DNA from: Paramacrobiotus metropolitanus
Lineage: Eukaryota > Tardigrada > Eutardigrada > Parachela > Macrobiotidae
Length of the DNA stretch: 64,000 bases
Assembly: GCF_019649055.1 (NCBI RefSeq)
Contig: NW_026570223.1
Coordinates: 310,001 to 374,000 of the forward strand
Direction of reading: 5' to 3'
Positions within the stretch are counted from its first letter, which is position 1. The number at the start of each line of letters is the position of its first letter. The position numbers and the translations under genes were made by a program. This document shows, piece after piece, positions 3,093 to 48,469 of the stretch. Below the pieces are notes generated by a model, which was not told where the DNA came from, did not search any database, and worked only from the letters and a program-made list of their open reading frames with translations.

Positions 3093-4486
3093 ATGGCACT
3101 TACCGCGGTGTTCATCATCTTTTCCGCGGTTTTCCTGATACTAGACACCGGCAAGGTAGCGGCGCATAATCAGACATGCAGTGCCTCTGCATTAGACGCC
3201 TGCCTCACGGGAGCACCTGCGGCTGACATTGGAAACCCCGCCGTGACGGCTATACTGGAGCGAGCTAGGGGCCATACGTTACCATACCGTGAATTCACCC
3301 AGCAGGACATGAATGCAGTTTGTCGGTACGCCTTGGGGTTCTTTGCACTAAATACACTGTTTACATAAAAACAATTATTATTGAATATAATTATTTTATT
3401 TCGTAATGTTTTCCAGTTAAGAAAAGGGGACTGGTACATGGTACCAAATTCGTGTACATGCACAAAAACTTTCGCTTTCGCGCACTCCCAGACACATTTC
3501 GGTTTATGACGTTTTGTAGCCAGAAGATTTGTATACACCGGCGTGAAAACCGTTTGTACGCGCAACGTCCGGTTCGGGAGTTATGGCTGTTAGAAAATTT
3601 GTATACAAATCTTCTGGCTACAGAATGTCATAAACCGAAACAAAAAAGTGTTTGGGCGCATCAGTGCGCGACAGTAAAATTTTTCGTGCATGTACACGAA
3701 TTTGGTACCATGTACCGGGCCACTTCCCTTAATTTACTTCGATTGATTAATATGTTGTTCTGCTACAAAAAGGTTTTGCGTAAACTCGATGTTTCATTTT
3801 CGAACTTTTCTGTCAGGGAAGAATAAAAGAAAGAGTATGCACAATTAAAGAGTAATAACATTCTTACCGCAGCGTGGCGTCATTTGCCGGTCCGTGTTTG
3901 GAAAACCATATTAAAACCTGCTTGTCACCCACCGGAAACGTTAACGGTTCCAACTTCCACCAGTTCTTGAGCGCATCACGGAAGATTTTAGCTGAGCTAT
4001 GCGCCCGCCCCAATCTGCTTAACGACGAACATCAGGGCTCCAAATGTCTGCACGTAATGGCTAGATACGGGAACGAATCCAGTTGTGATGATTATGCAAA
4101 TGCAGAGAATCCCCTCCAGTGCCACAATGCGTCAGTATGGGATTTTCCACAACATCAGGTGTACTTTCAGGAGAACGATGTCCTCGGTCATCTGTGCTGG
4201 TAAAAGGGTGGTTATCCATTTCTGCGCTTGATAACACACCGTTGATGTGGTTATTATTGGTTTTTGCAGTTCGTTTAATAAAGCACAGCAGTGCGCTGCG
4301 AAAGGCACTACGACAGATGACAAAGCCAGCATGTGTTCGGTGGATGCGCGGAGGTTGGCTGGGGAGCTGCTTGGGATAATGGAGAAAGGGTACATGTGTG
4401 CCGATCGTGTCAAGTACTGCAGTATCATGTCTCAGCGAATCAGGACCCCAAGCAATAATTGTCGGCTACCTGGTGAATCGCACTAG
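3093..4486 (+). CDS. Gene A: small secreted cysteine-rich protein, three exons
   Basis: Exons 3093-3325, 3873-4199 and 4270-4486 give 258 aa with no break; both introns are GT-AG and in phase 2. Residues 1 to about 24 are a hydrophobic signal peptide (MALTAVFIIFSAVFLI core). The mature protein has about 16 cysteines, including a CC pair made by joining exons 2 and 3, and sites such as NGS and NES that could be N-glycosylated. Without splicing, exon 2 would end at Trp and TAA, because the donor itself forms the stop. Closest relative is gene B: both share GSNFHQF in exon 2 and QNDVLGHLC-type ends, and both lack the Pro/Gly tail of E and G. Intron 1 holds a TTAA-flanked MITE. I do not recognise the family; an extracellular role follows only from the signal peptide and cysteines. 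Confidence 0.8.
3421..3728. mobile_element. TTAA-flanked MITE in intron 1 of gene A
   Basis: A 308-bp fold-back element between TTAA at 3417-3420 and TTAA at 3729-3732. The outer arms are inverted: GGTACATGGTACCAAATTCG on the left against CGAATTTGGTACCATGTACC on the right. Inner sequence (AAGATTTGTATACA, GGTTCGGGAGTTATGGCTGT) also occurs in the larger element at 10415-11098, so both belong to one family. TTAA target sites are typical of piggyBac-type transposases; no transposase is encoded. Confidence 0.75.
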
Positions 4487-5163
4487 CCATAGAAGGTGGG
4501 GTCGTGCAAAGGAGATATTACAGTATTTAGATTTTTTCTTGTGAGAAACATTGTCTCCATTATTGTCTCCTGTCTCCTGTGTGAGAAACACATGGTCTCC
4601 TGTGTGAGAAACAATGTCTCCTTTACTGTACAAAACTGCTGTGGCTCCTGACATACTGTTGTGCTGAAACGAATGAACGCCGCTGTTATGTTTTCGTATA
4701 GCAGTAATAAAGCAGCCGCAGGTTCACAGCGAATCCTGTTGATCAGTTTGCTGTTCTAACTGCTAATTATATGAAAAACATAGACGCGCCTGAGTAAATT
4801 TTTACCAATTTTTCACAGGATACCGGCATTATGGTTTTATTATTATTGCCGTTAGCCTCTGCAACGATGGCTTGACTTCGTTTCTTATTTATTCTTACTA
4901 TGCGAGAGATAATGACGGAAATAACTGAATCTACACACCAAGTGCTTGAATAAGCCACAAATATTTTTTCAGCACATTTATGGGCGGCAAATTACGAATT
5001 ATTTACGAGATCAAACACAGAACCATTAAATTATGTTATAGTAGGTACGTACGAGCATCCCAAACTATGTAAAGAAGCGATACGCAGCTCATCTGCAACC
5101 TTTGTAGTTCTTCTTGTAACGGAAAGACATATGGTTTCGCCCGCTTTATTAAAAGGGTACGCA
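4487..5163. other. Intergenic with short local repeats
   Basis: No gene seen. Bases about 4540-4625 contain several direct and inverted copies of GAGAAACA and TGTCTCC. A polyadenylation-type AATAAA near 4707 could serve gene A. Confidence 0.4.
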
Positions 5164-7449
5164 TTAGTATTGGAGAACGGTATTTCCGGTTGTGGTCTTG
5201 ATCCAGTCCATCAGTCCGCTGATCCTTGTGTACACTGCCGGCTTTGTCGGATTTCCACAGCTGAAATACAATTATACCAAAAGTAAATAACAACACACAG
5301 AGCGGTATCCTAATAAAATAACAAACTACAACGGATTTCTAAATAATTTAACGGAAATTACCCCGTAAGAGGTCCAAAGCTGACAACCCCATGGAGAATT
5401 CAGCGTCGGCTAGTCGGGTCTTGGCAAACCAGTGGCCCGCCACTGTCGCCCTAAAAATTACAAATGGATGGCAACAGGATGATTACCAGCGTCCAACGTT
5501 AACGTTAACAAAACAAAATAAGCGAAGATATACCGAGCAGGCATCGACGGTGCCGGCTGGTGTCCCGGCGCACACTTGCACATTGCTCGTGACCATATTG
5601 CCCCAATACTGCGCCGCGCACTGCTGCCGTCCGATAATTTGCACACGGCCCTGCTGCAGTACCGATTTGTAGCTGGTGCCCGTGGGACCCGACTTGCCCC
5701 AGCCGGTCACCATGCAGGTGGTGCCGTGCGGGATATCATTCTTGCTGATGGGCAGACACACCGGACTAATTTGGGCTTTGAAGGTCAGGTTGGTGGCCAG
5801 CCGGAGAATGGCGATGTCGTTCCTGAAGTTGCCCGATTGGCCGGCGTAGTTCGGGTGCTGACCAATGCGGAGTACGGCGTGGTCTACTTGCGCCGCTTCG
5901 ATGCGGGTTTGGTCGTGATCCCCAGCACGGATCATGTACTCGGCATTAATCCCACTGCAATCGCGCATTTAACGTTGAACATATTTGGGAAATAAAAACT
6001 CTGTGTGGCTTGTAAGATAAAACGTGTCCGTCCTCCAGAAATATTAATTTAAGAAGAAAAAATCCACCACTTTCAATTCGTCCATTAACTACCAGACTAG
6101 TGATTACACTGACTGTGAATTTCTATGCGGCCATCTTTGACTTTATGTAGTATGTACAATATATATATATTGTAAAAAAATCGCAAAGGCAAATTGTACT
6201 TTGAATGTAGACTTCTCTCGTGGGATTCCAGATCGCTTAATTACCATGTTGTGAGTAGCAAAACGCTCATGTCTAAGCTGCAGCTGACTTTAAAACTTCA
6301 GGTAGTAGTGACACATTTACACTACATATCCGCTGTGCTCCTGACGGAGCACTACTACAATTCAGTTTGTGCACTGTGCGAGCTCACGTCTGCCTCTACG
6401 CGGACTCAATCCCAATTTTGAATCCGCTGTTCTGTACAAAAAAATTAGCAGATACCCTTCCAGTTTTACATGTGTTCAGATGCGGACCGCACTTGTGTTC
6501 AGCTACCTGGAAGGAATATGATCGTAACAATACTTCTACTGATTTTAAAGTATGCCGCACTTACTTGTTCTCACTTACCTCACTTAACATTTGCATCTCT
6601 ACCTTATATTGTGTGCGTTATCCCAAATTTGAAGTTTCATTTAAAGAACAGTTTTGAAAACAATACTTCAAGCAACTGCATCGATTATTTGGCTTGAACA
6701 TAACGTGAAATACTTGCTCAAAATGTATTAAGAGTTATCAAATTTGAGATTGCTCAGATTTGTTTCACCTGTTAATTCTTCTCCTAGTGCAGTTTCAACG
6801 TTTTCGGGTGGGAGAGTAACTTCGCTGACTACTGCTGAACTTTTGAAACCACCCTGACAAGACTCAATTTTAAATCTGACGTTGTATAACTTTGATTTGG
6901 ATACAACCGCTTCTCAAAGCAACGGAAAAAGATTCAGTTTGTAGTCCGAGCAGCGGTTTTTCTTTATGGGTATTCGGCCAGGATCCATACTTCAAATATA
7001 GTCATAAAATACATATTTACCCGACTAAACAATGAGCAGCCGTAACGACATATTTCTCGGTTAAAATGCTGCCTCCGCAATTCCACATCACTTGGCCGTT
7101 AGCCTGGCGGACGCCGAGACGAACCTGCCACGGCCAACTGCCAGCCACCGCATCATTGCCACCTGAAGATAAAGAAATTGCTTGTATTTTCTTTTCATTA
7201 AACCCGGCAGTAAGGCTGTGTCTGACCTTTAACTCTTGACATATCCGATCGCGGTGATATTTGAGGAATTCCGCAGGTGATAGCCGCTTCAGACAACGCT
7301 AGGAGTAAGTGCAGTGGTTGACAAATCAGAATATTAGAAGCATCTTATTATAGAGCTAAAGTTAAAACTAGAGTAACGACACACAATTCCTTACCACATA
7401 CTATTCCGGTAATGGTCAACAGCATGAGGAGAAATCCACACGATGCCAT
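5164..7449 (-). pseudogene. Trypsin-like serine protease gene, complete but with one in-frame TGA
   Basis: Six exons: 7395-7449, 7227-7298, 7021-7162, 5534-5954, 5362-5450 and 5164-5260. All have GT-AG borders and compatible phases, totalling 292 codons. Exon 1 encodes a signal peptide (MASCGFLLMLLTITGIVC). Exon 2 ends the propeptide at RVK, followed by [12 protein letters not shown] where most trypsins have R-IVGG. Catalytic His is in TAAHC, Asp in NDIAILRL and Ser in GDSGGP. Asp six residues before the Ser (VDACSGDSGG) predicts trypsin-type P1 Arg/Lys specificity. The C-terminus AVYTRI..DWI is also present. The defect is TGA at 5400-5402, where a Trp (RW-ILHGVVSFG) is usual in S1 proteases; it would remove the last 60 or so residues. 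It could be a young pseudogene, an allele, readthrough or a base error. The rest shows no decay. Confidence 0.85.
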
Positions 7450-8693: not shown

Positions 8694-9809
8694 ATGCTAA
8701 TCACAGTTCTGTGTGTTATCCTGTCAGCGGCGTTATTCGCACAAGGTGCCGAAGAGACCACGCCCAACCCGGCATGTAACGATTTTGCAATGTTGGCCTG
8801 CTTGATGGCACCCATGGCGCACTTTATGAGCCCCATCGGAATGGCCATGCTGGAGCGCATGGGCAACCGCACCGGAAGTGAAGCACAGTTTACCCAGGAA
8901 GACATCACCATGATCTGCCAGTACGATCAATATTCTTTTTGCATTCATAGTAAAATTTTTCTGTACAAGTACAAACAAAATTTTTTTTGTCCAGATCCAA
9001 ACGTTACTTTTATTGTCAGGCTTTATTTTATTGAATTCGGTTCTGTGGTAAATTTTCTCAAACTTTTTAATGAATTTCTCATTTAAAATCCATTTTAAGA
9101 TTTCAGAAAAGTTCTGTGAACCTTGTTTTGAATCATATTCGTCTCCATAGTTATAGCACGTGTCTTTAATACAGCAAAATTCCCGTAAGACGGGATAACA
9201 ATTTCTCATAATTGCACACACAGGGTGACGTCAACGGCGGGTCAGTGTTTGGAAGGCTACATTAATAACTGCTTCTCATCCGCCGGAAACGGCTCCAACT
9301 TCCACCAATTCTTCAGTGGTAGCCTGCAAATTAGCAAGGAATTCTGTGCCCGCTCCAGCCTTTACGCCGACGGGAAGCTAGCCTATGAATGCCTGAATGA
9401 ACTGGAAAAAAAAGACAACGGTTCCAGTTGCGGCGACGATGAGGAGTTTGAGGATCCCTTTCACTGTAATAATGCGTCCATGATGGAACTGCAGCAGCAT
9501 CAGGTGTTCTTCCAGCAAAACGATGTGCTTGGTCATCTGTGCTGGTAGGTGCGCGGTTTTGCCGGATCTAGTCTACACTGAACTTTATTTCATTTTTTTT
9601 ACAGTACGTTTGACAAGGTCAAACAATGCGCCGTGGCGAGCCAGATAAATAGCGTATGTTCCGCGGATGCGCGTCGAGTGATTGGAGAATTAGTTGGTGT
9701 GATTGATAAGGCGTATACGTGTGCCGACCGTCTTAAAGATTGCGCTACAATGCCCCAGCGCATCAGGACCAAAGCCAACAATTGCCGCCTAGCGGCAGAT
9801 GCGCCATAG
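8694..9809 (+). CDS. Gene B: small secreted cysteine-rich protein, three exons
   Basis: Exons 8694-8920, 9224-9544 and 9605-9809 give 250 aa; both introns are GT-AG and phase 2, as in the other six members. Signal peptide about residues 1-18 (MLITVLCVILSAALFAQG). Exon 1 then has CNDFAMLAC and a Met-rich stretch ending in an ICQ junction. Exon 2 is rich in Cys and ends in GHLC, with the CC pair completed by exon 3. Exon 3 carries five further Cys and ends RLAADAP. It is the sister of gene A in sequence, exon length and upstream DNA, with the protease gene lying between them on the other strand. The intron 2 donor again creates Trp-TAG if unspliced. Function unknown; secreted by inference. Confidence 0.8.
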
Positions 9810-10170: not shown

Positions 10171-10414
10171 TTGGTTAAATTTTCTTTTTCACTTCAGCGG
10201 AAGTAGGTGAATTGTGACCGGCAAAAATGATACGGATCAGCAGCATCCGACACCTTTCAAGTTTTAAACTATTAAAGTGCAACTGGACCGGTTAACGGTA
10301 GAAAATGTATCTGTAGGACGTGTAATACGACCGGCAGATCAATGCATATAATAGATGACGATGCATATAATATCTGTATATTCAGTACATCGCAAATCGG
10401 TATTTAAGAATTAA

Positions 10415-11098
10415 GGGATTTGGCCCGGTACATACAGTATCACCAAATTCGTGTACATACACGGGAACTTTCGCTGTCGCGCACTCCAAAACACGTTTTT
10501 GCATTGCTTTATTGTATTTTGTAGCCAAAAGATTTGTATATATAGGCATGAAATCCGTTTTTGCGCGCAACATCCGGTTCGGGAGTTGTGGCTGTTAGAA
10601 AATTCCAAAAAGTTTAAATGCATTCAGGTGTACCAAAAGTCTCATTATGGACCGATCCCTTTCAAGTTTTGCACGTAAATGCACATAACCATGAAGATCG
10701 TTCTTACACGGATCCAGACTTCCACGATTTTTTTCGAATTTTAAAATGAATTTTAAAATTTTTGAAATTCATTTTAAAATTTTAAAAGCATGCTAGAACA
10801 GTGGATCGGTGTAAGAACGATCTTCATGGTTATGCGCATTTACCTGCAAAATTTGAAAGTGATCGGTCCATAATGAGACTTTTGGTACACCTGAATGCAT
10901 TTAAACTTTTTTGAATTTTCTAACAGCCATAACTCCCGAACCGGATGTTGCGCGCAAAAACGGATTTCACGCCTATGAATACAAATCATTTGGCTACACA
11001 ATGTCAAAAAGCAACCCAAAAAAGTGTTTGGAAGTGCGCGAAAGCGAATATTCCCGTGTATGCACACGAATTTGGTGCTATGTACCGGGCCAAATCCC
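10415..11098. mobile_element. TTAA-flanked long fold-back element
   Basis: A 684-bp near-perfect palindrome with TTAA on both sides (10411-10414 and 11099-11102). The ends are GGGATTTGGCCCGGTACAT and its inverse ATGTACCGGGCCAAATCCC. Arms are over 300 bp and meet in an AT-rich centre near 10735-10790. It shares internal sequence with the MITE at 3421-3728. No transposase frame exists. The TTAA target suggests mobilisation by a piggyBac-type enzyme encoded elsewhere. A cruciform of this size is a possible hot spot for rearrangement. Confidence 0.85.
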
Positions 11099-11102
11099 TT
11101 AA

Positions 11103-11432
11103 GACACGTATTCATCTGTTTATTTGTCAATCTGCTCTTTTTATCCACCATCTTAAAAGGCGAGAGCAAAATGTTGGATAAAAAGGCATGGATGATATGC
11201 CGCACAAGAACGGTTTGAATAAAAGTAGTGCTTAGATTAGGACAAAAACCGGAAGCCCTGACAAGACACAGAAGTGACAGTAATTATAACAATAACAACA
11301 ACAATCATAACTCTGTATGATTGAAAATGCAGAGAGATTTAGAATGAGCACATGTTTACAGTCTGGGCAACTTTGGATACCCGGACTGGCCTGCATCAAA
11401 TAAGATCATAAATAAGAACATGCATGCATTTG
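11103..11432. other. Intergenic, nothing recognised
   Basis: No coding or repeat signal beyond a short AAC/AAT-rich stretch near 11285-11305. It probably contains the 3' UTR of the LRR gene on the minus strand. Confidence 0.35.
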
Positions 11433-15227: not shown

Positions 15228-16400
15228 ATGTGGAAATTAGGAGTATTACTGGTACTGGCTACGTGCCGATTAAGCTGGGCTAATCCCAGTTGTGATTTAA
15301 GCAGTGTCTTGCCGTGTATGATGCCAGCCATTGCCTATATGCTTGGTCCCGAAGGGCAGGAATTGGCCACGTTGAAGGACGGCGGAGAGATCAATGAACA
15401 GCAACTACTCGGCATTTGCAGGTAACAGTGGTTATACTTGATGTTTTTCTTATAAAGCATCGCATTTTGCTTTAGCTGACCTTAACTAGCTTTGAGTTAC
15501 TTGGCTGTTTACTTCCACCATATTATAATTATATCTTGTGCGTAATTACAATTAATACGCTTATAACGTATTGCAGTTTTGTCGAATTATTTTCCAAAAG
15601 TAGTGATATTAAATTACGTAAGCGCCGTGTTAATTTTTTTCGCGATATTTACTCCGCGGTATGCACGTATCTGTACACCTGCACCCATGCGAACGTTTGC
15701 CCAACGTAATCGATACCAATGCGATGGCCATTTTCAGATTGGGCCAAAGCACGCTGGGCTGCATGAAAGACCACATTGACCGTTGCGTTCCGCGCAGCAT
15801 CCCCGATATACACGATTTCATGGCCGGCACCGCCAACGTGATGACGGTGTGCGATAAACCGGGCATGTACAGCAATGCCAAGGTGCTGATGAAGTGCAAC
15901 CAGAAGCTGAACGCCACCAGCACCAAATTCCGGCGCTGCACAGAGGATTTGTCCAGCGGTATCCAGGGCATGACCGGCGGCTCGCAGGCCACCGCCACGT
16001 TCAGCACCGACCCCAATAAAGCCCTGGATATGTGGAAGAGCGGCAACATGCTCCGTGACCTTTGCTGGTAATTAGCAAATATTTGCACGCTCAAATTAAT
16101 TTCATTATGATTCTGAACAGTGGCACTGTAATTTTCTAAATTAAGTTTCAGTTTATTTCAGTTTGAGTTACCTTATTAACAAATAAAACACTCTGTATTA
16201 TGCTTTGCGCAGCCAAGCATGTCAACATTTGTTTGTTTGCTTTATTTAGCAAAGTGCAAAACTATAAGAATTGCATGGGTACGGAAGTGACGGATAAATG
16301 CGGTGCGGATGCTGCTGCAGTGGACACCAGTGTCTTTCATGCCATGTTCAACACCTACTCGTGTCAAGGACGTGTTGCTGACTGTTCATCTGTTGCATAG
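15228..16400 (+). CDS. Gene C: small secreted cysteine-rich protein, short third exon
   Basis: Exons 15228-15421, 15738-16067 and 16250-16400 give 224 aa in frame, both introns phase 2. The ATG at 15228 starts a signal peptide (MWKLGVLLVLATCRLSWA) and was preferred over the longer upstream reading, which lacks one. Exon 1 has the family block CMMPAIAYMLGPEGQEL; genes D, E, F and G have close versions (MGPEGQQL, MGPEGQEL). Exon 2 carries CVPRSIPDIHDF and VCDKPGMYSNAKVLMKC, aligned with CVPRDVTD and VCDRPDLYSK in the paralogues. Exon 3 keeps GTEVTDKCG but stops after VADCSSVA, where E and G continue into a Pro/Gly tail. The tail is absent or was lost by a premature stop. Function unknown. Confidence 0.8.
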
Positions 16401-17583: not shown

Positions 17584-19718
17584 TTACATGGGTCCACCGG
17601 GTCCGCCAGTACCCGGTATGGGAAATACATGGACCATATTTTTCACATCCAGCGCTTCATCCTCCGCTGTTGGCGGCGCCAGAACTGGACAGTTCTCACC
17701 GCGCGGACCGTTGCACTTCAATGCCTCCACTACGGCATCAAGGACATCGTCCACAATCTGCTGGGCTTCACGTCCACACTTGTCAACCACTTCCGTTCCA
17801 CTACAAGCTTTGGTGGATTTAATGTTACTGCAGTACAACAAATCATAATTATATAAAATGATGCTGGCAAATTTCACTATTGACGACTTTTTTCTATATA
17901 TTCTTATTTAATTATTTCTGTATATCTTTTTCTAGCCATGTATCCTCTAGTGTTGGGTAGTAAAAGTCCTTGCCAATATACTTATTTTTACTATCGGCTT
18001 TTGAAAGTTTACTTATTTTTACTTACTATTCAAAATTTTTCGGGACTTTTACTTACTTTTACTTTTTATTTCAATTTTCCCAAGGACATTTACTTACTAA
18101 ATTAAAGTAAATTTACTAAATAAATGTAATTTAGCATTGAAAGTTTCGAATTGCGTTAGTTTCAAAGCGCAACAGACTACTGAAAATAGTGCAAATAAAT
18201 TTCTTATGCATTAATCGAGCTATACAGGTGCATACTGAAAAATAAATACTGCTGCTTTGGAGGGCGGCAGGCTGGCAGCCGACTACTGCGCACACTCACT
18301 TTACCTGCGAGTGGCGGCGGCGGACACGCCGATTTTCCGTAACGTTGATAAAACGATTTAGTAAATAATTTAGTAAATGATTTTTATTTATTCAACGCTG
18401 AACCTTAATATTTACTTACTTTTTACTATTCCGTCTGCACATTTACTTACTTTTACTTACGTTGTTTCCAAAACCTTACTATTTACTAGACTTTTAATAT
18501 TAGGCGGACTTTTACTAAGTAAATGGCCGTTATTTAATTTTATTTAGTAGCACAACACTAGTATCCTCGTCCATTTATTTTTTAATCCACATTCATGTAC
18601 ACGTATATCTATATTATATATTCTTTTTAATACTCTGTACGGCTGCTAGCGGGATCTATAACTCTATACAGATGATAGATACTTGTACATCCTTTTCTTT
18701 ATTATTAAATATATCATCTTTCATTTGTTTTATTATTAGATTATTATTAGATTATTGCTTTATTATTAGATCTACACATTTGTGTAGATATAATCATTTT
18801 AGTACGACTTCTAATGTTCCCTGTAGTTTCTGATTTTGTATTTTATAGTTTTATGGAAAGACGGGAATTTGTTAAAATCTGCGTACCAGCATATGTCCTT
18901 CATGATCGTTCCGTTGCGCCACTCGGCCAGCCCATCCCCGCTCTGCGGGGTCGTCCTCGCTTGTTCGTTGTACAAGCGAACGGCGCGGTTGCCGCAAGCG
19001 CGGGTTTTCGAGCCACCGGTCTGGTTGAGCGTCTTGCCGCACTGCATTAAAGTGCGGGTTTTATTGTACAGATCCGGACGGTCGCATACTTCCATCAGTT
19101 TCACCAGAGCCACACCAAGCTCGTGTACATCGAGGGCATCACGCGGCACACATTCGCCGATGGCGGTGTTGGCACAGGTCAGCATTTCCTTACCGACTCT
19201 GGGAAAAGATAAGCACAGATAAGAACTACGTTTGCGTACATACGTGTACGTCCATGACCAAGTAGAATACCTACTTCAGCAAGTGCTTCTAATTTTTAAA
19301 GCTTTCTAAACGGAACAAAAACCCTGTGAACCCAGTTCAAACGCTGATTTCAGAATATATATAAAGGCGCGTGTATTTAAAAAAAAACTGTCGTAAATGG
19401 GTTAGAATAATCAAATCAGCAAAACAAATGGAAGACTGAATCAGCAAAAACAAGAAATAAAATCTGAATCGAGCTTGAAGGAAAAGTTGAAGAAACAGCA
19501 GCGGTTAATTCATGGCACCTGCAGATGCTTTTCAAATGCTGCTCCGTGATACCCAGTCCGTCTTTGAGTTGGGCCAATTGTTGACCTTCCGGTCCCATAA
19601 TAAACATGATCATAGGCGTCGTGCAGGGGATAAAAGAGAGATCGCAGGACCTGATCCCAAGTGGATTGGCGGCACCGTACCCGGCAACGGCCAGCAACGT
19701 CACCACAATAAATTTCAT
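17584..19718 (-). CDS. Gene D: small secreted cysteine-rich protein
   Basis: Exons 19519-19718, 18887-19198 and 17584-17827 give 251 aa with phase 2 introns. Signal peptide MKFIVVTLLAVAGYGAA, cleaved before NPLG. Exon 1 has CDLSFIPCTTPMI and MGPEGQQLAQLKDG. Exon 2 has CVPRDALDVHEL, VCDRPDLYNK, LNQTGGSK (an NQT glycosylation site) and CGNRAVRL. Exon 3 has CSGTEVVDKCG, ALKCNGPRGENCP, then PPTAEDE and a short GTGGPGGPM tail. It is nearest to E, F and G. Intron 2 was enlarged by a hAT-type MITE (17948-18560). Probably an extracellular structural or binding protein, but this is inference from composition only. Confidence 0.85.
17948..18560. mobile_element. hAT-type MITE with 8-bp target-site duplication, in intron 2 of gene D
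   Basis: A 613-bp element with ends TAGTGTTGGGTAGTAAAAG and TTTAGTAGCACAACACTA (inverted TAGTGTTGTGCTACTAAA). It is flanked by the exact 8-bp duplication GTATCCTC at 17940-17947 and 18561-18568. The TAGTGTTG terminus and the 8-bp duplication are hallmarks of hAT elements. The interior is rich in TTTACTTAC motifs with one GC-rich patch (18255-18345). No transposase. Confidence 0.9.
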
Positions 19719-23919: not shown

Positions 23920-26900
23920 TTACATGGGTGGCCCACCGGGACCGAAACCACCGGGTCCGCCCATGCCCATACCCGGCATGGAGAGCATGTTGGTCATACT
24001 GGATACGTCAATCTGCTTGTCGTCTTCCGCGGTGGGCGGCGGCAGGGCCGGGCAATTTTGTCCACGGGGGCCGTTGCATTTGAAGGCCTCCTCGACGGCA
24101 AGGGTGATATCATCGGCAATTTGTTGGGCTTCACGTCCGCATTTGTCGGCAACTTCCGTTCCACTGCAGGTTTTGTGAGATTTGATTGAACTGCAATAGC
24201 AAAAACACGTACAGTAACAATTTTAGTTTTTGAATGTCACGAATGGCGTAACCTTTCAAAATGATTTGCTGTATGTTGTTTTTCGTATATTTAGCGACTG
24301 GCAGCACAGAATTAATTTTTCAAATGTTCGATTTAATTTTTCGTCGGTATCTAATTATTTAGTTATTGATGTTTTTGTTGTATCAGGTTTGAGTAGAAAT
24401 CCTTCGTTTACGCACCAGCACATTTGCTTCAGGATTTCCCCGTTGCGCCATCCAGCCAACATATCTCCGCTCTGTCCGGATGCCTTAGCTTGCTCCATAC
24501 CCAGGCGGAACGATCGATTGCCGCAAGCGCGTGCTTTGGAGCCATCGGTCTGGTTGAGCGTCTTGCCGCACTGCATCAAGGTGTTAAATTTGCTGTAAAG
24601 ATCCGGACGGTCACAGACATCCATCAGTCGTACCACCGTGGCAGCGAACTCGTGAAAATCGGTAACATCACGCGGCACGCACTGACCGAGGGCGGTTTTT
24701 GCACAGGTTAAGGTTTCTTTGGTGAGTCTGCGAAATAAACAAAATAAATACGGTATATAAACAAGTACTTCCATAGTAACGCATTATTGTCGCTGTTTTC
24801 CTTTTTTCGTTTCACTTATCTTATCTCTTTCTCATTTCGCTATAATTATTCCGTCGGCAAGAGCGTCGCAATTTTTTTAAAATACGCTTACATTTTATCA
24901 TCCTTGGTAGGCTCAAATAATTAGTTAATTAATAAAAATTAATGTAATATGCCGGAAAATCTAAAGCTTTATTCCCGCCACCCAGTGCTAATCTGAAACC
25001 CGAACAGGGGTTGTTTGGGCCTGTCAAACTACCCTGTTCGGGACCAGAAACCAAGTCCGAGGTGCCATTGTGCGGGCCAGAGAGCTCAGGCCTACCGGCA
25101 TACGGGCGGAAGGCCTATTTGTAGACCCACTCTGAGCAAGTTCTGGTTCCGCCTGGGCCTATCTAAACACGATATGTAACAGCATTCAGGCCCAGTCCAT
25201 ACATTAACTGACTTTGGTTTGCAGTAGCTTTTTTATTTTATATTTACTTAAACCAACGCCTTAACACGACTTAGCTTTATTATTCAGTGATATACAATTA
25301 GTATGCTTTATTAACATTTATATAACATAATGATCATGTAGCGCATCACATGCACTGATCACAGGGCTGCGTTAAGCACGTCATAAACATGTAAAAACAA
25401 GATGCACAGCGTATATATGTGTACAATCATTTCTCAGTATTTCGGCTCAATAATTTCGTAATTAACATTCGCATCAGCTCTCTTCGAAGGCGCCTCCGAC
25501 CCGATGGCATACAGTTTTTCTCGCAACTTCTTGTTGGAAATATTCGGCAGCTTCAATGGGTTCATGCGCGTGCTGGCTGTGGGCAGGCGTTCTTGAATAA
25601 TGTTCATCGGGAAATGGGGAATTTCTGAGAAAAATCCTGCAATTATTATACTTATTAATCCACTCATTAGTCAATAAAATAATCATTTTAACACTTAAAA
25701 TCAATAATTTATTGCAGTTTGAAAATAACAAAAATGGACTACAAACAAATAGGACTTTTTCCACAAATTGCAATTCTCACACACGCGAAAAAAATTATCC
25801 ACAATAAGCTGCGACAATAATTAATTAAAAAATAAAACAACAGCAGTACGTAGTTAAGTACGCGTTGTAGTTACGTGTCCCATCAGTATAAATTTAGTAT
25901 AAATAGTTCCCATCAGTATTTAGTATAAATAGTTTCCCAGTGCAAATAAACTATGCGCGTATTTCTGCTGTTTGCATATACTGATAATATTACCGTATTC
26001 AAAGTACTTTTAACGCTACGCACGCACCTGCACGGGATCATCCTGTTCTAATTTGTATTAATTTCCACATCTTTCGGAACATTTCTGCTTGATCCTAAGC
26101 CGTAGAAGGTTTCGACAAGGCGGTTTCTCAGTGGAAAAGAGGTTTTTGACGATCAGAGAACCGACGCAAGTCGAGAGCTGGCAAACTACACGAACCGTTG
26201 GAACAGTAAAGGCTGAACTGCACGAAATTACAGCGTCAAGACAGCGCTCTTAACAAATTCCCAGAAGCAGTCGTTACAAGTTTGAAATGCACAAAAATGC
26301 CTTCGTGATTACAACAATTAAGTAGAACATGAACAAAATAAAATCAAAGTAGAAGAAGAGCTGTTTATTGTTTAAAAGTTTGCAATAGCCAGAAGCCAAC
26401 AATGTCAGTACTTATAAGTCTTTGACAGTGATGTGCAATAAGTACAGTATGGTGCATCTAGAGCAACGGCAGTACCGCCTCCAAGCGCGGGAAAAGCGAA
26501 CTACCCCGGCTGGCAGTTTCCAAATGGTCCAGCAAATTGTTTCAGTAAATTGTATTACAATTTACAATAATATTTCTTTAATTACCTGCATGATTAATTT
26601 TGTTGATGTAGTAGTAGTTTTCAACTTTGGATTTATAGAACAATGCTCATAAATTCCTTTCAAATAATATAATATAGATATTATTATATGCAGTGACTGC
26701 AGCGCGTTGTGTCAGTTTAAAGCAGTTATGAATTATTATTATATTTTATTATAATGTAATAATAATTCATAATAGAGCTCCGCAATAATAAGTAATAATA
26801 TTATTATTACTTATTATTACTAGGCTCTATTCGGACCGGATATACGACATTTTACGTACGTAATACAATATGTACATTGCATACATGTACATACTGCCGG

Positions 26901-27474
26901 TCAGTTATCATGGCTTCTGAATCAACAGGAATTTTGTAGCTGACATCGCTAGATTTTGTTCGCTACCTGAATTAAAATATCCAGATAAAGAAAACTTTAT
27001 TTGTGGGCCAGAACTATGATTTTTTGGGCCAGAATATTTCAGCACCACTCTGGGCAAGTTCTTCCCACGAAACTGAACCAGATCTGGCCCACAATAGGTT
27101 GGCCCGGAAATGCCATTGTCCTGGAACAGAAAATGTTCCGGATAGGCCAGCATGTTTCGTGCCCCGAACGGGCTTGATTTCGTTTCTAGAAATTGCACTG
27201 GGCAAGAAGCTATCCATAATGTCTAAAGTAAATTAAATGCGCACGGAAAGCGGGTCAGGATATACCTGCACAGACTTTTCAGCTGCTGTTCCGTAACATC
27301 CACTCCTCCTTTGAGCTTGGCCAGCTCCTGACCTTCCGGTCCCATGGCGTACGTCAGGAAAGGCATCGCGCAAGGCATGAAAGCGCTGGGATCGCAGGTG
27401 CCCAGCGCCACTGGATTGGCGGCACCGTACCCGGCAACGGCCAGCAATCCCGCAATAACACCGGCAAACATCAT
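23920..27474 (-). CDS. Gene E: small secreted cysteine-rich protein with Pro/Gly-rich tail
   Basis: Exons 27266-27474, 24416-24727 and 23920-24190 give 263 aa; phase 2 introns. Intron 1 is unusually long (2.5 kb). Signal peptide MMFAGVIAGLLAVAGYGAA, then NPVALGTCDPSAFMPC and YAMGPEGQELAKLKGG. Exon 2 contains CVPRDVTDFHEFAATVVRLM, VCDRPDLYSKF and LNQTDGSKARAC. Exon 3 contains CSGTEVADKCG, EAFKCNGPRGQNCPALPPP and ends in a Met/Gly/Pro tail (MGGPGGFGPGGPPM). E and F share most residues and also their upstream DNA, so they are recent duplicates. Intron 1 carries GGCCC-rich repeats and an AT palindrome; a fold-back element interrupts the upstream region. Function unknown. Confidence 0.85.
25005..25180. 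repeat. GGCCC-rich dispersed repeat, copy 1, in intron 1 of gene E
   Basis: Stands out by repeated GGGCC/GGCCT words and the phrase ACTCTGAGCAAGTTCT. A related block occurs at 26995-27190 in the same intron. Probably a decayed mobile repeat; ends not defined. Confidence 0.4.
26784..26818. repeat. AT-only palindrome
   Basis: Two 17-bp arms (AATAATAAGTAATAATA and its inverse) with a 1-nt loop, in intron 1 of gene E. It follows another imperfect AT hairpin at about 26725-26772. Confidence 0.8.
26995..27190. repeat. GGCCC-rich dispersed repeat, copy 2, in intron 1 of gene E
   Basis: Multiple GGGCCAGA and inverse TCTGGCCC words and ACTCTGGGCAAGTTCT, matching copy 1 at 25005-25180. It ends about 70 bases before the intron 1 donor of gene E. 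Confidence 0.4.
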
Positions 27475-32147: not shown

Positions 32148-32160
32148 TGGCGCCCACCGG
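32148..32160 (+). promoter_or_regulatory. Putative primer binding site of the LTR element
   Basis: TGGCGCCCACCGG starts immediately after the 5' LTR. The TGG start complements the CCA end of a tRNA; which tRNA primes is not determined. Confidence 0.6.
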
Positions 32161-32525
32161 ATTTTAACAACCCCTGGGAATCTGGATCGTCTGGTAAGTG
32201 GTATCGTTTGTTTGTCGCTTTGTATGGTTTTGTGTGGTGTTGGTTGACCGCGTGGATTCTCAGAGAATCCCGTGAGACAAGGTTCCTAAGTGAGAACCAG
32301 GTGCTAAACCGCAGTGTGTACCGCAGTGACCTTAGAGGGTTGCGCGAGGCACGGTTCCTAAGTGCGAGCCAGGTGCTGGACGGGAGTCCGTATACTGTAC
32401 TCGTACTGGTAATTGGTACGGTGTGTACTGAGAAGTCGTGGCGAAAGCCCTGTTATTCGTGTAGCAGACTTACATCCGGGTTCGGTGACCTGGATTACTT
32501 GTCTGTTGTTTGTCAAGCAGGTGCA

Positions 32526-37995: not shown

Positions 37996-39425
37996 CTATG
38001 ACCAGTATCTGTATGCCAACATATTGGCCATGCTGGGTACGGGGAACGGCTTTTCGTCGTCCGCAGAGGGCGGTGGCAGGAGCGGACAGTTTTGTCCACG
38101 GGGACCGTTGCATTTGAAGGCCTCCTCGATGGCATGAGTTTGCTCATCAGAAATTTGTTGGGTCTCACGTCCGCACTTGTCAGCCACTTCCGTTCCAGTG
38201 CAGGTTTTATGGGATTTGATACTACTGCAATTGCAAAATACGTTACGATTTTAGTTTATAAATTTGACAAACTGCGTAATCTTTATCGTAACCTTTATCG
38301 TTCTTTATCGTAATCTTTATCCTTTATCGTTTTACAAATTTAAAAATATAGTGAAGTACTTTAAATCTGGCAAGGTTATTTTCGTCGAAAGTTTGAATTG
38401 CTTTCTTATCAGTATTACTCCAGTTTATTACGTACCTCGATTTTTACTTATTTTGACGTATCATGATTTAGTGAAGAATCTGCTCGTTTACCAGCATATT
38501 TGCTTAAAAATTTTCCCGTTGCGCCATCCAGCCCAATTATCCTCTTTCTCCAAACCCAGGCGAAACGAAAGAGTGCCGCAAGCGCGTGCTTTGGAGCCAC
38601 TGGTCTGGTTGAGTGTCTTGCCGCACTGCATCAAGGTGTTGAATTTGCTGTAAAGATCCGGACGGTCACAGACATCCATCAGTCGTACCACAGTGGCAGT
38701 GAATTCGTGAAAATCGGTTACATCACGCGGAACGCACTGACCGAGGGCGATTTTCACACAGGCTAAGGCTTCCTTGGTAACTCTGCCAAAAACAGAATAA
38801 ACAGAAAAAGTAAATAATCACACAGAAGACTTATTACTGTCTAGTTTCTTTCTTTTTAAAATTCAGTTATCGTTTTTTCTTTAAACGCGTTTTAATAAAA
38901 TTGTGATATTGTTAATTCTTAAAGTTTAGTTATCGTTTTTAAATTCAGTTATCGTTCGTTCTCATCTTTGAGAATTAACAATAGCACAATTTTAATAAAA
39001 CGCGTTTATCATCCTGGTTAAGCTAAACTAGTAAATAAGACTTTTTAGGTAATTCATACAGAGAGACAGAGTACAACTCTAGAAAAATTTATGGCCGTTA
39101 GCTGTACAGTACTTTTATAGTTAAAAAGTTATCGTACTGTTACTGTAACGAGTCGTACATATACCGGCTAAAATATTGTATTAATATCCACGCGGAAAAG
39201 CGGTTCAGGATACCTGCAGAGGCTTCTCAGCTGCGGCTCCGTCACATCCATTCCTGCTTGCAGCTTGGCCAAATAATCGTGACCTTCCGGTCCCATGGCG
39301 TACGTCTGCATGGTCATCCCGCACGGCGCGAAGGTGCTGGCGTCGCAGGTATCCAGCGCCACTGGATTGGCGGCAACGTAGCTGGCAATGGCCAACAATC
39401 CCGCAATAACACCGGCAAACATCAT
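37996..39425 (-). CDS. Gene F: small secreted cysteine-rich protein, truncated tail
   Basis: Exons 39214-39425, 38492-38782 and 37996-38224 give 243 aa; phase 2 introns. Signal peptide MMFAGVIAGLLAIASYVAA. It is the closest paralogue of E: CVPRDVTDFHEFTATVVRLM, VCDRPDLYSKF, LNQTSGSKARAC, and EAFKCNGPRGQNCPLLPPP. Differences: one extra residue in exon 1 (MGPEGHDYLAKL), 7 codons missing in exon 2 (LEKEDNWAGW where E has a longer GMEQAKASGQSG segment), and a C-terminus that leaves the family after MANML to end AYRYWS, without the Gly/Pro tail. The 3' flank of E is also absent here. Still an open frame, but it may be decaying. Confidence 0.75.
38882..39008. repeat. Inverted repeat in intron 1 of gene F
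   Basis: Two 38-bp arms starting TAAACGCGTTTTAATAAAAT and ending in the inverse order, with about 51 bp between that repeats TTCAGTTATCGTT. Absent from the same intron of E; probably a small mobile element or a hairpin duplication. Confidence 0.75.
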
Positions 39426-40815: not shown

Positions 40816-41448
40816 CCAGTTTTATTTGGATTTTGGCACAGTCATGAGTATTATACGGTGTTTTTTTGTGAACCACTCATCCGAAACATACAAATATTTT
40901 GTTCCACAAAAATGTTTTTAATAGGGTTTAATAGAGCAGAATTTTATTCCACCGGGTAATTAACTCATAAATTCTTATACTGCAGTTCGAAATATAATTG
41001 GTTTCCATTAGAAAATTTAATTTTCTGTCAGATCCGAAGAATGCCCATAAATTTTTTTGTAAGCGACAAAGGTGCATTGCATCGCGCGCAACTTCCTTGA
41101 GCATGTCACAGTAGTATCATATAACGAGTACAAGCCGGAACTACAGCCCTACAGCAAGCATCACAACAGTATTTTCCAGGATGTTCGGTTACACTGGTGG
41201 TCCATTGGGACCGAAACCATTGGGTCTGCCCCTACCCGGCGCGGGGAGCATGTCGCTCACATTGGATACATCCAGTTCCTTGTTGAGCATCCTGACACAC
41301 TGCATCAAAATAGCCAGTTTGCGTCATTTGTATTAGTGTCCATCGCGCAGGCACTTTTATGTGTGGTGGCTGTTGGCTATTGCCAAATAAGAACTTCAAG
41401 TAAATTTGCTGCAGAGATCCGGACGGGCGCAGACATCCGTCAGTTGTA

Positions 41449-42559
41449 CAGAGGGTGATTTTGCAATATACTTCCACTTTCTTTATGAATTTATTGTCAT
41501 CCTCTCCGTGCATGTTTTATTCTTAGAGCGGTTAATTTTGAAAGCCCTTTCTTTTAGCGATCATAACAAATTTATTTTAAGAAATAGAAAACAGTTTAGC
41601 ATACGGTGGGATTTTGCAAACCGACAAAGGTCTGTGCCCAACACTGTAACAATTCGCAAAACGTTTTGCAATGCCTTCCATTAAAAATTTGCTACAAAAT
41701 CGTCATCAATTCATAATCTATGGGTGCCAGGTTTAGTGAATTGTTACATCATGTGGCCTTCAGAAAACATCTGGCTTCGTGAGATTTTAGGCACTGGTAC
41801 GTTGTGTTAGCTTCGTGAACTGGAAGATAGTCATTTCAACTGTTTCCCTTGCGTTCCTCCCCGGGCCGCAAATCCAGATTCTCCTGAGAAGTTTTTTAAG
41901 CGACTTTTTAGTATAGCAATCTACGGCGGTTTTAACACTGGGAGGGGCCACATGCACTGCATTATTGTCCCGGTAAATAATTTCGGAAAACAAACATCAT
42001 TCGTTTTCGTTTTTTTTTATCAAATTTTGATTTTTTATTATTACGATAATTAAAAGTGGCAGCACAGAATTTCGTGTCTCCCGTCCGAATAAAGAAGCTA
42101 CATCTGCGCCTCACCGATTGCGACGGTCTATTTCAAATTCCAGAAAATAAGGAAACTGGCAAAAAGATTTTCTCGTCAAAAATTTGTTCCAGTTTCAAAA
42201 ACTGGGCGTTCCACTTTAAAATCACTTGAGTGCCACTTACTTCGTTTTTAGAATTCAACTAATGATGAATTATCAAACACATATTGAAGTATTTTTAAGT
42301 GACAAGAAGTGAAGGAAAGAACAAGGGAGGGAATTACAGCTTAGGACAAAAAAGACGCATAATCCCACCAACAGCATTGCGAATGCATGCAGCGCAGTGC
42401 GCTGTACGGCTCACTTGTCAGCTAAAATACCCAGTTGTCGTAAAAATGCACTTGCCACATGCGTACGGATATCTGGGTGTGGGGTTATGCGTCTTTTTTG
42501 TCCTAAGCTGTACTGCAACTTTGTGTCCGTGCTGGAAGCTATTGCGAAATCACCCTCAG
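41449..42559. mobile_element. Tc1/mariner-like element inserted in exon 2 of pseudogene H
   Basis: 1111 bp with 20-bp inverted ends CAGAGGGTGATTTTGCAATA and TATTGCGAAATCACCCTCAG, flanked by TA (41447-41448 and 42560-42561). Removing it restores the order of exon 2. The size fits Tc1/mariner. A minus-strand piece near 41930-41985 reads YRDNNAVHVAPPSVK, faintly like the D-N-x-x-x-H block of Tc1 transposases, but the frame is broken and I cannot confirm a transposase. A second, smaller element is nested inside. Confidence 0.75.
42337..42510. mobile_element. Nested 174-bp MITE with TA target site
   Basis: Ends CAGCTTAGGACAAAAAAGAC and the exact inverse, TA on both sides (42335-42336 and 42511-42512). 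The inverted arms continue for about 35 bases (GCATAAYCCCACM). It lies within the element 41449-42559, so it inserted later. Confidence 0.9.
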
Positions 42560-43952
42560 TACGACACCGGCAGCGAATTCGTGTACATTGGTAACATCAG
42601 GCTTTCGTTCCTTTTCGTGTTAGTTGAAATTATCGCATTTCTTTCTCATTTTAAAAAAAATAGAATGTCGTAATTTTGTCACAATGTGTTTATCGTCCTA
42701 GTTAACCTGTTTCTTCCTAACAGGTTAACACCAGCAAACACTATTTTAATTCTCAGGCTAGCAAAGGTCATAAATAGTTTAACGGAAGAATGCAGCGTGC
42801 CGAAATCGATAGACTGAAGGTTTTAACAGCGGCAATTTATGGTTTTACAGGTTATATGTTGTTTGAGCGAAGCACGCCTTGTACTTGACAATCGCTTGCC
42901 ATAGTACCGTCTGTTGTGCGATAAAAACACCAGTTGCAACATTTTGCATTATGCATGTTCGCCGTGCATTCCGTAATCCATCTGGAAATGTCTGCCTGTT
43001 TTCTGTGTACAATACATCTATTGTAAACACATCCAGATAAATCATAAATATATACTATACTGTTGTTTCCATAAATCTGGTTCTGCTTTAAAGAAAATTA
43101 ATAGTGCTCTCGTTAACCGAAATCTGTACGTGTAATACAGTATTCGAAAATGCATTAGACGTAAAAAAGGTAGTTCAACTTACGTGAGTTTTGCAAATTT
43201 TTTATTTTTCTAACCAACTACAACACCCCATTACCTAATCAATCATTATCAGTGCAGGGTAGGGTTTTTTATATCTGCGATTTCTTCCAAATAATAAATT
43301 AACAAAACAATAATTTTTATTACTGAATGGATAATATTATAGCCACCGAGAAAAATAACCAGAAAGCCATACTACCACAAGTTTGTGCCGTTTGCTCCGA
43401 TAGCCAAGAAACCGGAGTGTCAGTTTTAGGTGCTCGAAATATCTGGTGAAAACATAAACTGAGTATTTCTGTTTAGTGTTTATTCTGATTTTACCGCTGA
43501 ATTTTTGCTGTTTCTATGAGGACGCGCATACAGTAGTTGAACTTGACCTTGTAGAAATTATCGACAATCACATTCTGTGTTGAACTTGCGCACTGAAAGG
43601 CTCACGGTGGTTGTAATCAGCGGTCAAAGTGCTGTTCTACCTGCTGGTACCGCGTTGGTTTTACATACAATTACCACAATTTTTGTGCGTCCGCATTTTA
43701 AACTGCATTCGGAGTGTAAAGAGAAAGTAGTGGAAGCAATCCGTATTCAGTATCAGCACCGAATCACATTTCTCGTATGACTGCATTTACAAAATAGAAG
43801 ACTGTAAATCCACGCTTCGAACAGCTGAAGAAATTAACGGGAAAAGTTTGACATTTCACACCCCCGCAGCCCCGATAAAATGCAGCGGGAACTATGTCGC
43901 CGGGCGGCCGTCGGAAACGAAACTATCCCGAATTTCACAACGTGTTGCTGAT

Positions 43953-44020
43953 ATTGTAGTTTCCTCGTTATTCGCAATTGACGGTGGCAGATCAGGGCAG
44001 TTCTGGGCCTCTGATGCCAG
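43953..44020 (-). pseudogene. Exon 3 remnant of another family copy
   Basis: The minus strand reads AQNCPDLPPSIANNEE, aligned with GQNCPxLPPPTAEDD of E and G. It follows directly on the upstream block of H, as the scrap at 40778 follows that of F, so each duplicated unit carries the end of the next one. Confidence 0.65.
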
Positions 44021-44025
44021 GGGCT

Positions 44026-46988: not shown

Positions 46989-48469
46989 ATGTATTCCGCT
47001 ATTGCCGTCTTGCTGGCCGTTGCCGGCTACGCCGCTGCCAGTCCGGTGGCGGTGGGAACTTGCGACCCGAGCCAGTTTATGCCCTGCGTAATGCCCATGC
47101 TTATGTTTGCCATGGGACCGGAAGGTCAGCAACTGACCAAGATCAAGGACGGCATGGATATCACCGAGCCGCAGTTGAAAAGCCTCTGCAGGTTAGTCCT
47201 AGGGACCCAGAGCAACGAGTTGGCCGTCAAAAACAAAATGCTTTTGCTGTGGAAGAAATTAACTGTTAATAAATATGTATCAGTTAAATATTTTCGCAGA
47301 ATTTCTAGTGGATCAGGGGTTATAAAAATTAGTTCTTATCGCTAGAAAATTTACCATTACTTTTCCGTGTTTCTTTATAAGAAAGTATACGTAGTCGTAG
47401 ACATGTATTTACAATCGTAAATTAATAAAGTTCTAAAGAAACATGAAAGATAGCTGTAATAACTACATAACGTATTTTTGAATTCTCTTTAGTTGCCCAT
47501 AACCTGTAACCAATAGCGCGTTTAACAATATATTGTACAGAACTCGAGTTTCCTTTCCGGGACAGTACTGAATATCATCTCATAAAAAACTCGCAATGCA
47601 AAATTTGCTATTAAAATCCGGCAATCAGTCAGCTTATCGATTTCTGAGAATCGCCGGTGTAGTTAATTAACCAGAATTACAATAGCGACGTTCGCTGTTT
47701 GCTTTGGTAGAATCGGAAAAGAGACTCTGACCTGTGCCAAGACCGCCGTGGGTTCGTGTGTCCCCCGTGACGTCACCGACCTGCATGAAGCCCTGGCCAG
47801 CACCGTGAAGCTGATGGAAGTCTGCGACCGCCCCGACATGTACAGCAAGGCCCGCGTCCTTTTCCAGTGCGCCAAGACCCTCAACCAGACCGCCGGCACC
47901 AAGACCCGCTCGTGCGCTAACCGTGCCGCCAGGACGTCCGTCGACAAGGTCAAGGCTAAAGGATCCAGCAGCGATCCGTTGGAGGAGTGGCGTAACGGTG
48001 AAGCCATGAAACAGTTGTGCTGGTAAGGCCGACATATATATAAATAAGTATGCCCTTATATATATAAATATTTGAAAAGGGGAGCATCGCTCACAGCAGT
48101 ACGATGTGAATATATGCCCTTACATATGACTTAATGTATATAGAATAAATTAAAATAATTTTGTACGAAATATAGAGAAATAAAAAATTGTTTGACAGTA
48201 ACCTCAAATCCGTCAAGAGCTGTAGTGGAACGGAAGTAGCTGACAAGTGCGGAAGTCAAGCCCAGCAGATCACCGACAGCATCTATGCTACCGTCTTGGA
48301 GTCGTTCAAGTGTAATGGACCCCGCGGACAGAACTGCCCGACGCTGCCGCCGCCCACCGCTGAGGATGCCAAGTTCGACATGCCGGATATGGGCAACATG
48401 TTCCCCGGTATGGGCGGTCCCGGTGGTCCCGGTGGTCCCGGTTTCGGTCCTGGTGGCCCACCCATGTAA
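46989..48469 (+). CDS. Gene G: small secreted cysteine-rich protein, best preserved family member
   Basis: Exons 46989-47191, 47711-48022 and 48199-48469 give 261 aa, both introns phase 2. The ATG at 46989 (MYSAIAVLLAVAGYAAA signal peptide) is preferred to one 30 bases upstream, which would put charged residues before the signal core. Mature protein: CDPSQFMPC, FAMGPEGQQLTKIKDG; then CVPRDVTDLHEALASTVKLM, VCDRPDMYSK, LNQTAGTK (glycosylation site); then KQLC-CN across intron 2, CSGTEVADKCG, SFKCNGPRGQNCPTLPPP and a tail of GGPGGPG repeats ending GPPM. Exon 2 is distinctly more GC-rich than the introns, a sign of coding selection. AATAAA follows at 48574. Secreted; biochemical role unknown. Confidence 0.88.

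Follow-up and report, generated by a model that had tools for sequence, protein, structure and literature searches.

Genes and features at the locus

The window analysed here is a stretch of 64,000 nucleotides from Paramacrobiotus metropolitanus and contains seven genes, A to G, together with a decayed eighth copy between F and G that was absent from the first-pass annotation of this DNA. All seven genes were rebuilt with three exons each; 14/14 introns run from GT to AG, and each gene has two of them, always in phase 2. Splicing yields open frames that encode 258 (A), 250 (B), 224 (C), 251 (D), 263 (E), 243 (F) and 261 (G) amino acids, which reproduces the earlier claim of seven genes with spliced open frames of 224-263 aa and phase 2/phase 2 introns. 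Exon coordinates below come from the spliced models, cysteines are written C1 to C14 and the Gly/Pro/Met-rich tails were assigned by composition.

3093..3325, +, gene A exon 1 (signal peptide, C1-C3; GT..AG, phase 2)
3873..4199, +, gene A exon 2 (C4-C9)
4270..4486, +, gene A exon 3 (split C10 codon to stop)
8694..8920, +, gene B exon 1
9224..9544, +, gene B exon 2
9605..9809, +, gene B exon 3
15228..15421, +, gene C exon 1 (protein C over the DUF19 cut-off)
15738..16067, +, gene C exon 2
16250..16400, +, gene C exon 3
19519..19718, -, gene D exon 1
18887..19198, -, gene D exon 2 (protein D: DUF19 23.1 bits, NRN1 22.2 bits)
17584..17827, -, gene D exon 3 (Gly/Pro/Met-rich tail)
27266..27474, -, gene E exon 1
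24416..24727, -, gene E exon 2
23920..24190, -, gene E exon 3 (Gly/Pro/Met-rich tail)
39214..39425, -, gene F exon 1
38492..38782, -, gene F exon 2
37996..38224, -, gene F exon 3
46989..47191, +, gene G exon 1
47711..48022, +, gene G exon 2
48199..48469, +, gene G exon 3 (Gly/Pro/Met-rich tail)
41186..43015, -, decayed eighth copy, whole extent (blastn and tblastn with E)
42726-43015, -, decayed copy: 5' flank and first codons (blastn against E)
41401-41449, -, decayed copy: short exon 2 piece (blastn against E)
41186-41283, -, decayed copy: exon 3 tail (blastn against E; tblastn with E)

Counting those in the signal peptide, we found 16 cysteines in A, 17 in B, 15 in C and 14 in each of D to G; 14 cysteines are invariant across the 16 intact members of the family (223-297 aa). 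An N-terminal hydrophobic stretch is present in 16/16 of these members. For A to G the best 15-residue Kyte-Doolittle mean within the first 34 residues was 1.75-2.92, and the signal peptides were judged by this hydropathy and not by a dedicated predictor. The earlier description of the proteins as secreted and cysteine-rich agrees with the N-terminal hydrophobicity and the 14 invariant cysteines, with the number of cysteines slightly corrected from 12-16 to 14-17. The core motifs quoted there for D, E, F and G are also present.

For the 12 of 21 pairs among A to G with a computable ratio (Nei-Gojobori) dN/dS was 0.17-0.38; the remaining pairs gave no ratio as their synonymous sites are close to saturation. 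Splice sites predicted from the cysteine spacing of A to G recur at 15 loci outside the window in the same genome. Donor 1 was at the predicted place in 13/13 loci tested, acceptor 1 in 15/15, donor 2 in 15/15, and acceptor 2 was exact in 13/14, the exception being locus C85 with its AG one codon off. As background, AG accounts for 5.1% and GT for 6.3% of the window dinucleotides. Because of the dN/dS values and the recurrence of cysteine-predicted splice sites at the 15 outside loci the models are not a product of chance, and on sequence grounds A to G are real three-exon genes. That they are instead exon-like pieces no longer joined, be it pseudogenes or mis-assembled repeats, is scarcely credible: although the same cluster contains one decayed copy and the reading frames of two paralogues located outside the window are broken, the seven spliced frames are open with consensus splice sites and dN/dS is well below 1 for the pairs where it was computable.

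The decayed copy aligns to gene E in blastn with 78.4% identity over 301 columns, 87.8% over 49 and 74.0% over 104, and tblastn with protein E matches its tail (E-value 2.6e-5). Across the genome there are at least 22 gene loci of the A to G family. Three loci of SAHS-like lipocalins were also picked up in this genome, and two of them turned out to code for ordinary fatty-acid-binding proteins. Genes A to G form a cluster built by local duplication, with seven intact copies and one decayed, and copies would multiply and decay through tandem duplication.

Relationship to DUF19

DUF19 (PF01579, T20D4.11-like) is described as extracellular with about 12 conserved cysteines. The curated Pfam cut-off is 23.2 bits and was passed by two of the 16 intact members, C (29.3 bits, E-value 8.7e-7) and c18_1538 (24.6 bits). 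Proteins D (23.1 bits), G (19.4), E (17.6) and F (14.7) all lie under the cut-off. At E<=1 we detected DUF19 in 10/16 members, and the profile search gave no DUF19 match for A, B, c3_946, c3_952, c3_1127 and c7_856. The match covers profile positions 64-156 in C and 35-156 in D, and the weak matches of c3_583 (14.4 bits) and c3_941 (13.9 bits) cover positions 1-156 of 157, from C1 to C13. Of the 14 invariant cysteines, 13 fall within the DUF19-matched stretch. The 14 members below the cut-off join the family via homology to C, and A and B belong to it with a profile E-value of 2.5e-11 (97%).

The first-pass annotation had called the family unrecognised and at the same time suspected a similarity to DUF19. 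The match of C to a known domain is clear, so the former claim falls and the suspicion was right; the family relationship of A to G and the position of A and B as a distant branch both hold. A tardigrade-only family with a spurious DUF19 match is very improbable. Most members do stay below the cut-off and six show no match, but the cut-off is passed independently by C and c18_1538 and the matches extend to the last profile positions at C13. At the level of predicted proteins the comparisons establish that the products of A to G are of secreted type, disulphide-rich and members of the DUF19 (T20D4.11-like) kind.

Structure searches and possible role

The structure models reached a pLDDT of 66 and 61 and both contain a read-through intron. 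Foldseek searches of the PDB with both models gave best E-values of 3.9 and 1.6, which are meaningless, and a PDB profile search with A to G returned nothing at E<=10. We also encountered matches to RGM_N (PF06535, the repulsive guidance molecule N-terminal domain) in c3_952 (13.4 bits, E-value 0.093), c3_946 (11.6 bits, 0.34) and c3_954 (10.1 bits, 1). All three fall on the C3-C5 segment, none is over the cut-off of 24.2 bits and chance suffices to explain them.

The product would be compact, all-helical, disulphide-locked and extracellular. It would not be an enzyme; we infer that it serves extracellularly, in soluble form, in binding or in the regulation of growth, stress or defence. Alternatively the proteins could be structural or matrix components, with a folded head rich in cysteines that would hold the Gly/Pro/Met-rich tail in place within the cuticle, the egg shell or a secreted glue. 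Bulk products of this kind fit tandem arrays, and over the 30 C-terminal residues the share of Gly, Pro and Met is 43-83% for D, E and G, 53% for c3_583 and 47% for c3_1127. However, the tail of F reaches only 30%, no such tail (3-23%) is seen in A, B, C, c18_1538, c7_856, c3_575 and the four c3_941-954 genes, and conservation sits in the head. We regard the structural role as unlikely.

Internal architecture and neuritin

Neuritin is a single six-cysteine unit with a GPI anchor and acts on synapses and neurites. The DUF19 region would equal two neuritin-like units in tandem, with the same cysteine ladder in each. A phase-2 intron would split each unit in the codon that follows its third cysteine, and the second unit would carry C10 and C14 as an additional pair. 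The spacings C3-x8-C4 and C9-x8-C11 occur in 16/16 members, and C5-x21-C6 (commonest value) compares with C12-x20-C13 (16/16). In the loci modelled both introns lie at equivalent cysteine positions and in the same phase.

Against Pfam the neuritin domain scored 135.6 bits for NRN1 (PF15056) and, as a weak match to the N half of the profile, 18.0 bits for DUF19 (E-value 0.0027, profile 10-84 of 157). Conversely, NRN1 matched four of the 16 members at E<=1, namely D, E, G and c7_856, the best being D with 22.2 bits (E-value 1.6e-4), and none of the 16 reached the NRN1 cut-off of 27 bits. Unrelated Pfam families also match the family set at E-values of 0.011-0.33 and neuritin at 0.073 and 0.086, therefore only the best NRN1 matches stand out. 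When profiles of the two DUF19 halves were aligned to neuritin, both fell on one and the same segment: the C half scored 16.0 bits, a value reached by 0/2000 Cys-fixed shuffles, and the N half 9.2 bits, reached by 54/2000. A separate alignment gave a similar result. Comparing half against half with hhalign was not significant (best E-value 0.028, probability 1.8%, in a different register), nor was the comparison in the proposed register (residue similarity P 0.13, hydropathy P 0.09). A PDB search with neuritin gave one match (E-value 0.22), which we took as chance. The search for a neuritin gene in the genome gave none that was convincing; two matches were rejected (best 18.4 bits, internal stops). 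A hydrophobic C-terminal tail is found in C85 and possibly in c3_575, which alone among the 16 intact members ends in a hydrophobic stretch.

The same observations could be read as DUF19 proteins unrelated to neuritin and lacking an internal duplication, the similar cysteine ladders and the two introns having come about by chance or because helical disulphide-rich proteins converge. The non-significant half-to-half comparison, the NRN1 scores below cut-off, the chance families at E-values near 0.01 and the shuffles that reached the N-half score all point this way. The reciprocal NRN1 and DUF19 matches within the same segment, the C-half score and the introns of shared phase at equivalent cysteines argue against it, and we give this reading not far short of an even chance. 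Tentatively, and at somewhat less than evens, we propose that DUF19 arose when a neuritin-like unit was duplicated in tandem together with its intron. Its soluble members would be two-headed neuritin relatives, extracellular modulators binding receptors or ligands, and the rare GPI-tailed members (C85) would keep the older membrane-bound form. As a whole, a two-unit DUF19 protein, compact, all-helical, a soluble extracellular regulator and growing in number by tandem duplication, is probably the best explanation, its certainty falling step by step from the two units to the compact fold and on to the role and the tandem multiplication.

If true, the neuritin link would give DUF19 a fold and a testable type of action, and would account for the equal phase of both introns. 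New here is the neuritin hypothesis; the DUF19 family itself was already known from roundworms. Because it shares the cysteine architecture, the branch found in the tardigrade supplies distant sequences useful for profiles and structure work.

Comparison with known systems

The tardigrade N half has a Cys-x8-Cys-x7-Cys core in a position that matches neuritin (NRN1), and the hydrophobic C-terminal tail of C85 resembles a GPI signal, as in neuritin. Unlike neuritin, the tardigrade proteins have 14 cysteines and would have two units instead of one.

In our literature searches, judged by the titles and abstracts shown, no paper connected DUF19 with tardigrades, the one paper returned for the two together being on an alga; nor did we find any joining neuritin with DUF19, or with repulsive guidance molecule in this context. 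A search for expansions of cysteine-rich secreted families in tardigrades gave only a mite paper. RNA-seq data exist for P. metropolitanus (PMC11191345). A Trichuris egg paper was set aside, as the term in its available text matched DUF1943 only (PMC8021180). In C. elegans DUF19 is a large family (PMC8410859, available text) and 51 genes are listed, 42 with a signal peptide and 14 induced by infection (PMC3534327, available text). Over-expression of T20D4.11 reduced worm length in one of the lines and also retarded the progeny, and the available text reports no knock-down phenotype for the worm genes (PMC8410859). The C. elegans genes (51 or more) are tied to infection and stress response, and we found no mechanism in the literature. 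One oyster protein also bears the DUF19 name (PMC10058639, available text), so the family is a weak marker for tardigrade phylogeny, and the lineage restriction anticipated by the first-pass annotation is not supported by these nematode and oyster reports.

Like nematode DUF19 proteins (C17B7.4, T20D4.11 and relatives), the tardigrade proteins are of secreted type and belong to a large multigene family, with two members over the cut-off, D just under it and weak full-length matches from C1 to C13. They are 223-297 aa long, whereas the C. elegans proteins have 140-220 aa (PMC3534327, available text). They also differ in the extra cysteine C14 outside the matched stretch, in the Gly/Pro/Met-rich tails of some members and in the strong divergence of A and B.

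Gene models in the window

We rebuilt the seven genes A to G from the DNA and found GT..AG borders for all 14 introns. Both introns are in phase 2 in each gene. With the invariant cysteines of the family numbered C1 to C14, intron 1 lies within the codon directly after C3 and intron 2 within the codon directly after C9, so that the split codon is C10. Intron lengths range from 60 bases (B) to 2538 bases (E). For the 12 of 21 gene pairs that were computable we observed dN/dS values of 0.17-0.38, so the spliced frames are under protein-level selection; E and F form the youngest pair (dS 0.38). The finding is real, and the seven three-exon genes of 224-263 residues with phase 2/phase 2 introns described by the first-pass annotation stand. 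Its description of the products as secreted and cysteine-rich holds: their N-termini are hydrophobic, and they have 14-17 cysteines, to which its range of 12-16 has to be corrected.

An eighth, decayed copy between F and G was absent from the earlier gene list. What is left of it, compared with E, is a 290-base stretch covering the 5' flank and the first few codons (78.4%), 49 bases of exon 2 (87.8%) and part of the exon 3 tail (104 columns at 74.0%). A 5' flank of ~290 bases, conserved at 73-79%, is common to E, F and the decayed copy; the genes were thus duplicated along with their upstream region, and the flank is probably a shared promoter region.

41186-43015 (-): decayed eighth family copy
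27456-27750: conserved 5' flank of E
39407-39683: conserved 5' flank of F
42726-43015: conserved 5' flank of the decayed copy

Other reading frames lie in and around the cluster.

3407-3826 (intron 1 of A) and 10371-11283 (between B and C): frames similar by eye, a putative interspersed repeat
5483-7298 (-), between A and B: trypsin-type serine protease exons (5483-5968, Pfam Trypsin, E 3.3e-25; 7017-7298 judged by eye)
32097-35417 (+), between E and F: 1106-codon open frame with a Cys-x2-Cys knuckle, by eye looking like a retroelement polyprotein
50701-51408 (+): reading frame coding for an F-box protein (PF12937 at 26.7 bits)
53081-54151 (+): Rhodopsin-type GPCR as one open frame (7tm_1, E 7.3e-15)
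53081-62000 (+): the GPCR frame and, after it, several frames that resemble it by eye, making up another local cluster of genes

Family identity

The genes had been presented as an unrecognised family. This is not borne out: by profile match the family is Pfam DUF19 (PF01579) and not a new one. In the Pfam scan the product of gene C reached 29.3 bits (E 8.7e-7) against a cut-off of 23.2, and the other window products with a match scored 23.1 (D), 19.4 (G), 17.6 (E) and 14.7 bits (F). DUF19 was matched at E<=1 by 10 of the 16 intact members known from the whole genome, two of them above the cut-off (C and c18_1538, the latter with 24.6 bits). The weak matches of c3_583 (14.4 bits) and c3_941 (13.9) span C1-C13 and profile positions 1-156. 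The same scan of the 16 members gave no DUF19 match for A, B, c3_946, c3_952, c3_1127 and c7_856. A and B are nevertheless family members by profile-profile comparison (E 2.5e-11).

Family members across the genome

At E<=1, whole-genome searches returned 52 exon matches for query G, 38 for C and 7 for B. We took 13 genome stretches outside the window and modelled 15 loci. Splice-site positions were forecast from the cysteine spacing of A to G and then checked in these loci: donor 1 was at the forecast place in 13/13, acceptor 1 in 15/15, donor 2 in 15/15 and acceptor 2 exactly in 13/14, the exception (the c85_234 locus) being off by one codon. Nine of the 15 loci have intact three-exon frames. 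In two, c7_858 and c89_142 (L007 and L010), the frame is broken in the assembly, and these are either pseudogenes or sequencing errors; the models of c8_1970, c5_93, c102_512 and c85_234 are incomplete. Including the window, the family comprises at least 22 gene loci with 16 intact genes, and additional fragments are present. All 16 intact members share 14 invariant cysteines. In the tree, E and F pair with support of 100/99; the four c3_941-954 genes form one group and A and B another, both at 100/100. The remaining branches are less well supported.

At locus L001 (C3:573000-577000) the intact c3_575 is adjoined by a second, degenerate copy together with an isolated piece of exon 3. The divergent member at L013 (C85:232900-234600), for which exon 1 was not located, is without C8, C10, C11 and C14, all four at once; this joint loss would fit disulphide pairs C8-C11 and C10-C14.

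Possible relationship to neuritin

Sub-threshold matches to the Pfam neuritin family NRN1 were found for D (22.2 bits), E (18.0), G (17.3) and c7_856 (16.2; cut-off 27), each on the C3-C4-C5 stretch, which has the same Cys-x8-Cys-x7-Cys core spacing as neuritin. As query we used a mature neuritin domain, confirmed by its NRN1 score of 135.6 bits. It matched the N half of the DUF19 profile with 18.0 bits (E 0.0027). The two halves of the DUF19 region carry a similar cysteine ladder (commonest values C3-x8-C4-x7-C5-x21-C6 and C9-x8-C11-x8-C12-x20-C13), and HMMs of the halves both align with one and the same stretch of neuritin (residues 26-69 and 32-62 in the query domain). The C half scored 16.0 bits against neuritin, reached by 0 of 2000 cysteine-fixed shuffles. 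For the N half (9.2 bits) 54 of 2000 did so, and 2 of 2000 when the cysteines were shuffled too. The hhalign results concur (shuffles as good: 0/60 for the C half, 7/60 for the N half). In the proposed two-unit register the two introns have an equivalent place and the same phase. One neuritin-like unit may have been duplicated in tandem, intron included, which would account for the NRN1 matches, the reverse match of neuritin to DUF19, the cysteine ladders, the shared alignment of the halves to neuritin and the intron placement.

Several results count against this. Direct comparison of the two halves was not significant, and in the proposed register their residue similarity is only slightly over chance (P 0.13; hydropathy P 0.09). 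Unrelated Pfam families also match, with E 0.011-0.33 in the family scans and 0.073 and 0.086 in the neuritin scan, and the weaker NRN1 matches therefore count for little. AlphaFold models of read-through pieces were all-helical and weak (pLDDT 66.2 and 60.6), with no PDB match better than E 1.6; the PDB sequence search found no neuritin structure, and the genome search found no convincing neuritin gene in this tardigrade. We regard the link between DUF19 and neuritin as a tentative hypothesis with somewhat less than an even chance of being correct.

Proposed function and comparison with other animals

The family proteins are of secreted type, cysteine-rich, duplicated and under selection. We infer that the product would be an extracellular helical binding protein locked by disulphides. 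At the LNQT motif, 11 of the 16 aligned members carry an NxT/S site, which suggests glycosylation. The tails are rich in Gly, Pro and Met in D, E, G, c3_583 and c3_1127 and hydrophobic in c3_575 and the c85_234 member (GPI-anchor-signal-like in the latter); this variety suggests that members are differently placed outside the cell.

PF01579, IPR002542, T20D4 and neuritin are all absent from the main text of the comparative tardigrade genome paper (PMC5531438), where 'DUF' occurs twice, both times for other domains. The interest lies in the presence of DUF19 in a tardigrade and in a testable two-unit neuritin hypothesis. As one oyster protein is named DUF19 (PMC10058639), the family is not nematode-only, nor is it a clean tardigrade-nematode marker. 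For C. elegans one account gives 51 DUF19 genes, 42 with a signal peptide and 14 infection-induced (PMC3534327), and another counts >80 paralogues (PMC8410859). In the experiments described in the latter, T20D4.11 over-expression reduced worm length in one of the lines and led to retarded progeny, and DUF19 knock-downs had no phenotype. By analogy with C. elegans we favour, with low confidence, a regulatory role in growth, stress or defence over a structural one.
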